A stretch of DNA of 39,394 bases from Lachnospiraceae bacterium (GTDB lineage: Bacteria > Bacillota > Clostridia > Lachnospirales > Lachnospiraceae): the NCBI GenBank assembly GCA_029227035.1, contig JAQXZD010000074.1, positions 1 to 39,394 of the forward strand. Direction: 5' to 3'. Made by a program: the position numbers and the translations under genes. Each line of letters begins with the position of its first letter. Within the stretch, counting starts at the first letter, position 1. Below the pieces are notes generated by a model, which had not been told where the DNA came from, did no database searches, and saw nothing but the letters and a program-made list of their open reading frames with translations. Shown here piece by piece: positions 3,036 to 29,810 of the stretch.

Positions 3036-3581
3036 TTAGTACCACGGAAGCTTATGGAACGGAATCACAAACAAATACTTCGATTTCACATCATCCAAAG
3101 TAATATAATGGTTCTCCCAGTATCTTGCATCAAAAGACACCTCTCTGTTATCTCCCATCATAAAATAACTGTCCTCCGGCACCGTAAAAGTCTCATCACA
3201 TTCCGTCACCACATCTTCGGACAGATATTCCGACTCATCCAAAGGTTCTCCGTCAATGTATACATGTCCATCAACAAAGGAAACCGTTTCTCCCGGCAAA
3301 CCGATAACCCTCTTAATCAGAGTTGTGTTCTCTTCCTCCAGATAAAACATGAGGATATCGCCCCTCTGCGGTGTTGTATCATCATATGCATTTCTGTCTC
3401 CAATCGCCCAGTCATGCACGTTCAATAACGGTTCCATACTCTCTGACGGAATTCGTCCAATCATCAGGAAAAAGTGAAAAATAATATAAATCGCTGCCAG
3501 AATAATGAAATAAATACCCCATTCCAATATGGTTTTCCGTCTTTGCTTCTTTTTCTGTTCCTGCTCCTTTTCCTGTTCCAT
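3036..3581 (-). CDS. lepB: Signal peptidase I
   Basis: Membrane serine protease that cleaves Sec/Tat signal peptides on the outer face of the membrane. The 181-aa protein has a charged cytoplasmic N-terminus (Glu/Lys/Gln-rich, 1-17), a single membrane helix at about 20-42, then the catalytic Ser in PSESMEP (S48) and the general-base Lys in LIKRVIGLPGE (K90). Conserved box E is MMGDNREVSFDARYW. The size is typical of Gram-positive type I peptidases with one membrane anchor. It is first of a likely lepB-nadA unit. Many Firmicutes carry several paralogues, so this need not be the only one. Confidence 0.95.
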   Translation of the reverse strand: MEQEKEQEQKKKQRRKTILEWGIYFIILAAIYIIFHFFLMIGRIPSESMEPLLNVHDWAIGDRNAYDDTTPQRGDILMFYLEEENTTLIKRVIGLPGETVSFVDGHVYIDGEPLDESEYLSEDVVTECDETFTVPEDSYFMMGDNREVSFDARYWENHYITLDDVKSKYLFVIPFHKLPWY

Positions 3582-14076: not shown

Positions 14077-14661
14077 TTAAAATTTATCTTCCACGATTAT
14101 TTTTCCTGTCGAATCATACAACACAAACTTCTTTACCTTTACAATCATTTGTCCTGCAATGTACTTTGTAGAGGGTTCATGAAAAAATGTTTCTACATAA
14201 CGATAATTCCCCCTTGCATCATATGCAATTCCCATATGATTGTATTCCTTGTTTGGACATTCTTCAAATAACACATAATCACTCTTGATCTTTGCATTTA
14301 TAAGCGTTTTATCAAAATCAATAATTGCACCTGTGTAGTTTAAAGTTGTTAAATTATCATATGAAAAACTTTTGAAACGTTCTTCAATCAGCGGATAGAA
14401 ATGACTTCCTTTTACCATCGCATCTGTAAAAGAACCATTCTTTATCTTCTTAATCACATCTTTTAATTTCACGGATTTATTGCTTTTATCCAACCAAAAC
14501 TGAACTAATTGAATATCCTTCAATTTATGTAAGCCAATCAAATGCGCAAAGTTTTCTTCTTTATAACTGAACTGAATGCAAGTACTATCCACCAATACAT
14601 ACTCCACAATGCAATTTTCTAATCGCATATAATCGTTGTATTTATCTAATAATTCCCCCAT
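14077..14661 (-). CDS. PBECR4-like nuclease-fold protein
   Basis: A 194-aa cytoplasmic protein whose motifs resemble the PBECR4 family (phage Barnase-EndoU-ColicinE5/D-RelE-like nuclease 4). Visible are ENFAHLIGLHKLKDI (about 36-50), a middle helical part, ERFKSFSYDNLTTLNYTGAIIDFD (93-116), and the C-terminal strands with NHMGIAYD and YVETFFHEPSTKYIAGQ. His41, His45, His142 and His161 are candidate catalytic residues by composition only. AAAGGAAT lies 6 bases before the ATG. The gene is AT-richer than its neighbours, suggesting transfer. It is preceded by a terminator and a structured leader with its own promoter. RNase toxin activity is an inference from the fold family. Confidence 0.65.
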   Translation of the reverse strand: MGELLDKYNDYMRLENCIVEYVLVDSTCIQFSYKEENFAHLIGLHKLKDIQLVQFWLDKSNKSVKLKDVIKKIKNGSFTDAMVKGSHFYPLIEERFKSFSYDNLTTLNYTGAIIDFDKTLINAKIKSDYVLFEECPNKEYNHMGIAYDARGNYRYVETFFHEPSTKYIAGQMIVKVKKFVLYDSTGKIIVEDKF

Positions 14662-14685
14662 GTATTCCTTTCATAACCTTTGGTA

Positions 14686-14722
14686 TAACAAAAGAAGCTC
14701 CTGATTATGAGTCAGGAGCTTC
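14686..14722 (-). terminator. Terminator between the leader RNA and the PBECR4-like gene
   Basis: A perfect 11-bp stem GAAGCTCCTGA/TCAGGAGCTTC with a 7-base loop (14694-14722) is followed on the minus strand by TTTTGTTAT. It lies about 25 bases before the PBECR4-like start codon. Transcripts from 14845-14873 would mostly stop here, and read-through would express the gene. Confidence 0.88.
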
Positions 14723-14838
14723 AATTTACTCTTTTGAAATGGTTCCTTTCTTTTCAGCTTGCGCCTATTCGGGAGAGCGAACCGACTCTCTGATGGGAGC
14801 TCCAATTGTGAGCCGAACGACCACAATCTTCTTTGCTC
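14723..14838 (-). ncRNA. Structured leader or small RNA upstream of the PBECR4-like gene
   Basis: About 115 nt lie between a promoter and an intrinsic terminator. Two hairpins are visible: ATTGTG/CACAAT (14805-14827) and GAGAG/CTCTC (14773-14790). Their loops are alike, sharing GTCG-TTCG-CTC (GTCGTTCGGCTC and GTCGGTTCGCTC), so they look like two degenerate copies of a roughly 32-nt unit. A GGAGCTCC string could pair with the terminator's 5' arm over six bases. It does not match any riboswitch class or T-box that I know. It may be an RNA antitoxin, a small RNA or an attenuator. A 76-codon frame across it is probably spurious. Confidence 0.55.
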
Positions 14839-14844
14839 AATTAA

Positions 14845-14873
14845 AGAATAACAGATGACACTGCTTTTTTCAA
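14845..14873 (-). promoter_or_regulatory. Promoter of the structured leader
   Basis: Minus-strand TTGAAA (14868-14873) and TATTCT (14845-14850) are 17 bp apart, with TGT before the -10 box (extended -10). Transcription would begin near 14838. Confidence 0.75.
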
Positions 14874-29652: not shown

Positions 29653-29775
29653 GAAAAAAGGTATAAGAAAGCCCACGAATCAGTATTAGCAACTACTGTC
29701 CCGTGGGCAAAAGATTCCACTGTCACTCATGTGACCCGACTCCATAACAAGACTGTTACGGTCTGTTCAGTTTGT
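29653..29775 (-). ncRNA. NiCo (czcD) riboswitch with terminator platform
   Basis: The minus-strand RNA matches the NiCo aptamer layout: P1 5' strand with AACTGAACAG (about 29765-29774), hairpin CGTAACA/TGTTATG, the conserved G-AGTCGGG junction, hairpin TCAC-ATGA-GTGA plus CAG, and the closing GGGACAG (to 29690) whose CAGT pairs back with ACTG. Downstream, GCCCACG (29702-29708) pairs with CGTGGGC (29671-29677), and CAGTA pairs with TACTG, followed by TTTCTTAT. The terminator uses aptamer bases, so metal binding would prevent it (ON switch). NiCo riboswitches are known upstream of CDF genes and respond to Co, Ni and Fe(II). Confidence 0.85.
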
Positions 29776-29810
29776 ACTGTAGATTTATATGCAGTGCAAA
29801 GAGCTCTTGT

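Follow-up and report, generated by a model that had tools for sequence, protein, structure and literature searches.

A conserved drum-related RNA encoded upstream of PBECR4 genes: a candidate type III-like toxin–antitoxin locus in Lachnospiraceae

The locus and its PBECR4 protein

The window analyzed here is a 39,394-nt stretch of DNA from a Lachnospiraceae bacterium (contig JAQXZD010000074.1, assembly GCA_029227035.1). Its minus strand carries a unit of about 800 nt that runs from a promoter through a leader and a terminator to a gene. The features of the unit and its two flanking genes are the following:

14873-14868 and 14850-14845, minus strand: promoter-like site, TTGAAA and TATTCT with a 17-nt spacer (sequence scan)
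14737..14840, minus strand: structured RNA of the window type ("drum-B", a name coined here; covariance model R1)
14694..14722, minus strand: intrinsic terminator between RNA and gene, 11-bp perfect stem followed by TTTT (sequence scan)
14666..14671, minus strand: ribosome binding site AAAGGA (sequence)
14077..14661, minus strand: gene of a PBECR4 domain protein of 194 aa (open reading frame, PF18813)
15788-14934, minus strand: MerR/GyrI-like regulator gene, 5' flank of the unit
13438-11510, minus strand: gene with E1-E2 ATPase domains, 3' flank of the unit

The promoter (14873-14845), the perfect 11-bp terminator hairpin with its T tract (14722-14694) and the 194-aa gene with its own ribosome site (14661-14077) had been described in a first-pass annotation of the window, and all three were found in place. 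The promoter scores 9 of 12, a value equalled by 10% of shuffles, and scanning of the region gave 12 promoter-like sites versus 7.4 (sd 2.5) expected. We infer the start and stop sites of transcription. The -10 box ends exactly 4 nt ahead of the start of the RNA model in 18 of 22 window-type leaders, and from this spacing the transcript would begin at stem P1 of the RNA.

Elsewhere in the window, a promoter of perfect consensus (TTGACA-16-TATAAT, the -10 box preceded by TG; 14045-14018, minus strand) lies just past the end of PBECR4 and has the orientation of the E1-E2 ATPase gene. A NiCo riboswitch (70.4 bits; 29694-29780, minus strand) is directly followed by a gene of the cation efflux family (29676-28672).

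The 194-aa protein matches the PBECR4 family (PF18813) with 29.9 bits (E 8.7e-07; 29.4 bits in the genome search) versus a curated cut-off of 27, and the domain call of the first-pass annotation is thus upheld by the profile search that it had proposed. PBECR4 is the only family over its Pfam cut-off, and 33 of the 38 rows in an alignment of the window protein with 37 relatives match PBECR4 and none a ToxN family, in agreement with the earlier remark that the protein is not ToxN-like. Residues F38, H40, L41, G43, L44, H45, L47 and R95 are invariant in this alignment, and by eye all 38 rows have S or T at position 158. PBECR domains have been described as having a histidine in an N-terminal helix and a serine or threonine in a late strand (PMC5512222). 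In an AlphaFold2 model of the window protein (pLDDT 96.4, pTM 0.89), H40 is placed in helix 35-42 and T158 in strand 153-162, and the protein thus appears to have the active-site pattern of PBECR domains. A fold search of solved structures and a search of PDB sequences revealed no significant match to the window protein, hence the nuclease assignment rests on the Pfam match and the conserved residues; a missing match does not speak for a new fold. No model of PADLOC or NCBIfam matched the three proteins searched. The PBECR4 protein is predicted from its sequence to be, probably, a metal-independent endoribonuclease. The PBECR4 type of domain has also been named in C. difficile proteins (PMC9403866). 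The genome of the window contains a second PBECR4 gene (G000, contig C2:2209-2766; 122 bits), which has an internal stop and a different leader.

The leader RNA and its relation to drum

The leader is a structured RNA of about 104 nt (14840-14737, minus strand). Relatives of the PBECR4 protein that are 64% and 40% identical to it in the same genus have the same kind of leader upstream of their genes. The covariance model R1 was built from 16 leaders of loci found through the protein, leaving out the window and its closest relative. It matches the window leader with 72.8 bits (E 4.6e-14 within the window), and in the 2.4-Mb genome this leader is the sole match at E up to 10 (E 2.8e-12; 150 of 1212 first-look candidates scored). 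The covariance search across PBECR4 homologues that had been suggested earlier therefore finds both the leader and its two hairpins conserved. Folding energy does not set the leader apart from shuffles when the terminator is left off (z 0.32); with the terminator, z is -2.29. The case for a real RNA is built on conservation in relatives, since the signals of the single sequence are partly within chance.

No Rfam family matches the leader at curated thresholds. A permissive search gave a full-length match to drum (RF02958; Rfam type "Gene; sRNA") of 27.2 bits, which is below the curated cut-off of 43 (E 0.0028 on 351 nt). With the stricter filters of an RF02958 search of the whole genome, the window leader is not among the matches. 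Weak cross-matches connect the two groups in both directions: R1 finds canonical drum loci with a best E of 0.002, and the covariance model R2 finds a window-type leader (L005) with E 0.0017. The architecture and the neighbour are common as well, as the window RNA has the same helices, pseudoknots and position 5' of PBECR4 as drum. By these sequence comparisons, the window leader is a divergent relative of drum, not a member of RF02958 by the Rfam cut-off (27.2 vs 43 bits). A relation to a catalogued RNA had not been foreseen by the first-pass annotation; drum itself sits 5' of PBECR4 genes. Among the other sub-threshold Rfam matches, OrzO-P was rejected (30.8 bits, below its cut-off of 60, with the terminator hairpin as the best-aligned part), and PyrR and the remaining ones were set aside.

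The RNA is composed of the following elements:

14797..14838, minus strand: stem P1, GAGC (14838-14835) with GCUC (14800-14797); R1 and covariation
14797..14838, minus strand: GA/GA internal loop beside P1, kink-turn-like; read here from the sequence
14804..14828, minus strand: hairpin P2, eight pairs at most, G-U at the ends; fold and R1
14813..14817 with 14768..14772, minus strand: pseudoknot 1, UUCGG in the P2 loop with CCGAA; covariation
14773..14790, minus strand: hairpin P3, 5 pairs GAGAG/CUCUC; R1
14779..14783 with 14741..14745, minus strand: pseudoknot 2, GGUUC in the P3 loop with GAACC; covariation in canonical drum
14756..14765, minus strand: small hairpin P4, GGC-GCAA-GCU; R1

In 22 window-type leaders, including that of the window, 97.1% of alignment cells are paired under this fold, and 19 of 30 pairs have double changes. 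The covariation is 0.379, compared to 0.168 for shuffled alignments and at most 0.082 for slid partners; this alignment was fitted to the nested part of the structure, not to the pseudoknots. A MAFFT alignment of 16 rows gives 0.280 versus 0.149 shuffled. Canonical drum RNAs have the same layout (64 RNAs, 60 of them distinct), with 90.5% of cells paired, double changes in 27 of 30 pairs, and covariation of 0.463 versus 0.199 shuffled and at most 0.104 slid. Three rows (L021, L023 and L026) are badly aligned mid-way in alignment A8 and were kept.

Pseudoknot 1 shows double changes in three of five pairs in the window type; in canonical drum it is 99.1% paired, with two-sided variation at all four of its four pairs. 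The window type hardly varies in pseudoknot 2 and has no double change there; support for this pseudoknot is therefore drawn from canonical drum, where 75.4% of cells are paired and five of five pairs show double changes, one pair being mostly unpaired. Minimum-energy folds of the leader contain P2 and lack P3, whose loop pairs with the downstream GAACC instead. A home-made double-pseudoknot score separated real leaders poorly from dinucleotide shuffles: the window was equalled by two of 60, and shuffles scored as high as the leader in 48 of 60 cases for L100, 28 for L056 and 22 for L086. The claim for the fold hence depends on covariation. The drum motif has been shown to contain a k-turn, which binds L7Ae and folds in the presence of magnesium (PMC8191799).

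The two hairpins noted in the first-pass annotation (14828-14804 and 14790-14773) both lie within the conserved RNA. The likeness of their loops, described as GTCG-TTCG-CTC, is literally present, but it is not a conserved repeat, as the loops differ in relatives. The proposed pair of degenerate repeats is replaced by one compact unit, in which each loop pairs with a downstream segment of its own to form two pseudoknots. Twin loop repeats were consequently ruled out, since the loops differ among relatives and have different pairing partners.

Association of the RNA with PBECR4 genes

The association was counted from both sides. On the RNA side, RF02958 was searched in three sets of genomes. Among 145 relatives, 15 genomes had 17 matches; of 392 genomes from the order, 20 had 25 matches (one of which repeats the relatives' set and three are below cut-off); and of 398 genomes from the phylum, two had one match each. 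The total is 43 distinct loci. A PBECR4 profile match is present in 33 of these loci, on the strand of the RNA and 13-112 nt after it. None was found upstream or on the opposite strand in the 43 loci, searched on both strands with flanks of about 1.5 kb. The genes beside drum are full length in 25 cases and partial or broken in eight, and seven of the RNAs next to the latter are over the cut-off. Ten of the 43 loci have no PBECR4 profile match; gene remnants visible by eye (L017, L123) were counted as misses. Three RNAs found in this way are below the RF02958 cut-off: L134 and L139 look false, and L133 (41.6 bits) has a partial PBECR4 gene. In the same 145 genomes, PF18813 has 42 matches, 12 of them directly after drum.

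Starting from the protein, 60 loci were selected by the PBECR4 protein alignment alone in a scan of genome contigs; as one peptide pattern was used, this set samples only PBECR4 proteins of the FxHLxGL type. A drum or window-type RNA lies within 400 nt 5' of the gene in 50 of the 60 loci, identified by RF02958 over its cut-off in 29 and by R1 (E 2.4e-07 or better) in 21. Sixteen of these 21 loci were used to train R1, and the untrained ones are L061, L065, L066, L072 and L102. The set contains near copies (L093/L095/L099/L105/L107, L083/L084, L110/L111, L089/L092 and others). The misses include two loci at contig ends (L106, L114) and one in which drum is 1.5 kb away with an apparent inserted element between (L090). 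Seven of the 60 loci have neither an RF02958 match over the cut-off nor an R1 match (L074, L076, L078, L086, L087, L100 and L108). The same two loop-to-downstream pairings were seen by eye in the leaders of six of them, all except L086, and R2 weakly matches L087 (E 0.0008) and L100 (E 0.003). A terminator scan between RNA and gene was positive in 45 of the 50 related loci.

The phylum sample of 398 genomes contains drum in two genomes and PBECR4 in four: the two stand side by side in G499, drum occurs without PBECR4 in G539, PBECR4 has a drum-like leader by eye in G146, and leaders of other kinds precede it in G767 and in the second copy of the window's genome. Judged from genomic position, drum RNAs and PBECR4 genes belong together, and these counts show the pairing of RNA and gene at the sequence level.

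On the protein tree, obtained by a quick method with 38 rows, 32 of them labelled, the RNA type changes once; six changes are obtained if the six unlabelled rows are treated as a third state. The proteins that have the window-type RNA group together. Treponema rows are placed among Bacillota, suggesting joint transfer of RNA and gene. A drum acting as a general sRNA on other targets, with the PBECR4 gene merely sharing its promoter, would agree with the Rfam type of the family and with the solitary and extra copies described below. We consider it highly improbable in view of the adjacency found from both sides (33 of 43 and 50 of 60 loci) and the single change of RNA type on the tree.

The cassette occurs as a unit at different sites. 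It shares 70% identity over 806 nt with a cassette from a genome labelled Roseburia, and neither flank of the cassette has a match in the locus of that genome that was compared (L004, L072). No PBECR4 gene adjoins four relatives of the MerR gene inspected by eye with their neighbours (L151-L154). Relatives of PBECR4 were found in 21 PLSDB plasmid records, 20 of Enterococcus and one of Streptococcus, and RF02958 over its cut-off precedes the gene in all four plasmid loci examined among these records. Two PBECR4 queries gave no match in 50,697 phage records. On one IMG/VR contig (L180), R2 matches (E 2.7e-06) at a distance of 85 nt ahead of the matched portion of a PBECR4 relative.

Genes for TIR and AAA ATPase proteins, or AbiH, are located near the pair on two Enterococcus plasmids. 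Such neighbours, together with the frequent pairing from both sides and a complex RNA with two pseudoknots, could point to an RNA cofactor: PBECR4 and drum would form an active ribonucleoprotein for defence between mobile elements, in which the RNA positions or licenses cleavage. The terminator between RNA and gene, which would put the RNA in excess as for an antitoxin, speaks against a cofactor, and we saw no variable, guide-like stretch in the alignments. The partial or broken genes beside drum (eight of the 43 loci) also argue against it, as they are in keeping with a protein that does harm and a partner that does not. We give this possibility little weight.

Solitary RNAs and other leaders

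Two drum RNAs (L010 and L135) have a terminator-like hairpin behind them but lack a PBECR4 match 3' of it. In L079, extra drum RNAs (2691-2802 and 3071-3183) lie beside an RNA-gene pair, likewise with no PBECR4 match after them, and their promoter and terminator are repeated, by eye. Additional RNAs of the drum or window type also accompany an RNA-gene pair in L096 (1480-1595) and L075 (32-136). In L021 the place of PBECR4 after drum and its terminator is taken by a small gene with a Cro/C1-type HTH domain according to Pfam (1695-1919); L023 has an open reading frame similar to it 3' of the drum RNA, and an unrelated-looking open reading frame follows drum in L141. As ten of the 43 drum loci lack PBECR4 and three have a different gene after the RNA, drum may have other roles.

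These loci bear on a leader acting in cis. An attenuator or riboswitch-like sensor could set read-through of the terminator, with the PBECR4 protein not binding the RNA. The consecutive order of RNA, terminator and gene in most loci would agree with such a leader, and so would the drum RNAs before a different gene in three loci (L021, L023 by similarity, and L141). However, the drum RNAs that have a terminator-like hairpin with no gene evident immediately behind it (L010, L135 and an extra copy in L079) argue for action in trans, the RNA type follows the protein tree, and a competing anti-terminator pairing is seemingly not conserved, by eye. The attenuator that the first-pass annotation had offered as an alternative is weakened by the RNAs without a gene after them, and we regard a cis-acting leader as unlikely.

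Other kinds of leaders precede some PBECR4 genes. In a second PBECR4 clade, two tandem repeats of 43-54 nt lie ahead of the gene in six of 11 leaders tested (L030, L032, L033, L041, L042 and L044), at about 100-235 nt upstream of the match to PBECR4. They contain conserved GUUGGC..CAAC and AAAA parts and are followed by a terminator-like hairpin, as seen by eye. In L051 and L054, two successive H-type pseudoknots (GGUC-x-GACC-x', by eye) and a terminator-like hairpin precede PBECR4. Matches to the Rfam 6A RNA occur about 70 nt ahead of two window-type RNAs (L058:1719-1769 and L075:1714-1765).

Proposed mechanism and comparison with known systems

We think it probable that the locus is a type III-like toxin–antitoxin system, in which the RNA restrains the PBECR4 ribonuclease. 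The reading of the leader as an RNA antitoxin in the first-pass annotation is supported by the conserved RNA accompanying PBECR4 and by the order of promoter, RNA, terminator and gene; its layout of two repeats is not supported. A single promoter would drive a short RNA that starts at P1 and folds into the double pseudoknot with a kink-turn. Most transcripts would end at the intrinsic terminator, and occasional read-through would yield the PBECR4 mRNA; with the terminator between RNA and gene, the RNA is proposed to be in excess of the mRNA. The excess RNA most likely binds the nuclease and holds it inactive, as in type III systems. If the RNA or its transcription failed, for example during phage attack or upon plasmid loss, the protein would be freed and RNA cut. 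We infer the toxicity of the ribonuclease, its neutralization by the RNA and the trigger of its release. The partial or broken genes beside drum fit this proposal of a harmful protein with a harmless partner.

In the literature searched, which did not include the original description of drum, no paper links drum or any other RNA with PBECR4, and no function for drum and no regulator of PBECR4 were found. The pairing gives an orphan RNA family a likely partner, and both of them a testable role. It also suggests that the proteins and RNAs of type III-like pairs are of more kinds than a definition built on ToxN allows. The pair is small, occurs on chromosomes of gut bacteria and on enterococcal plasmids, and could be assayed in laboratory strains. 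A broader proposal, for which we see the chances as even, is that PBECR4 constitutes a second superfamily of RNA-restrained toxins, in which a single protein fold would have been combined more than once with antitoxin RNAs that are unrelated to one another. These RNAs would comprise drum, the window type, the two repeats of about 50 nt and the tandem H-type pseudoknots, all of which stand before a terminator and the gene. If so, drum would be an antitoxin family, and type III-like systems would extend beyond ToxN, in both Bacillota and Spirochaetota.

Among known systems, the PBECR domains of phage polyvalent proteins share with the window protein the PF18813 match and the placement of His and Ser/Thr, but the latter is a stand-alone protein of 194 aa with an RNA partner. 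Drum resembles the window RNA in the order of P1, P2, P3 and P4, the two loop-to-downstream pairings, the A-rich 3' linker and the PBECR4 gene 3' of it; in contrast, the window type scores below the cut-off, and the Rfam label of drum names no protein partner.

In C. difficile, RCd22, which contains two abiF Rfam motifs, has been shown to neutralize AbiF by direct binding (PMC12373285). The AbiF_Cd/RCd22 system (RF03085) resembles the window locus in that a toxin gene of Bacillota is preceded by RNA motifs known to Rfam and by a terminator (PMC12373285). It differs in its Abi_2/AbiD/F protein and in its two RNA motifs of 33 and 35 nt (PMC12373285); no match to Abi_2 was found in the window protein with Pfam, nor to RF03085 in the leader with Rfam.

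Type III toxin–antitoxin systems are defined by an RNA, a Rho-independent terminator and a toxin gene expressed in that order from one promoter, and the terminator is thought to make the RNA exceed the mRNA (PMC5086642). The locus shares with ToxIN, CptIN and TenpIN the order of promoter, pseudoknotted RNA, terminator and gene of a predicted ribonuclease, and covariation points to a pseudoknotted fold of its RNA. The repeats of type III antitoxins are 34-50 nt long (PMC12373285), whereas the window RNA is a single double-pseudoknot unit of about 104 nt and not a tandem array; its protein is PBECR4 and not a ToxN homologue by sequence. The second PBECR4 clade has the classical type III anatomy of repeats, terminator-like hairpin and gene, with a different protein. 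As its protein is no relative of ToxN by sequence and its RNA no repeat array, the window locus falls outside the definition of a type III system; by analogy, it would work like one.
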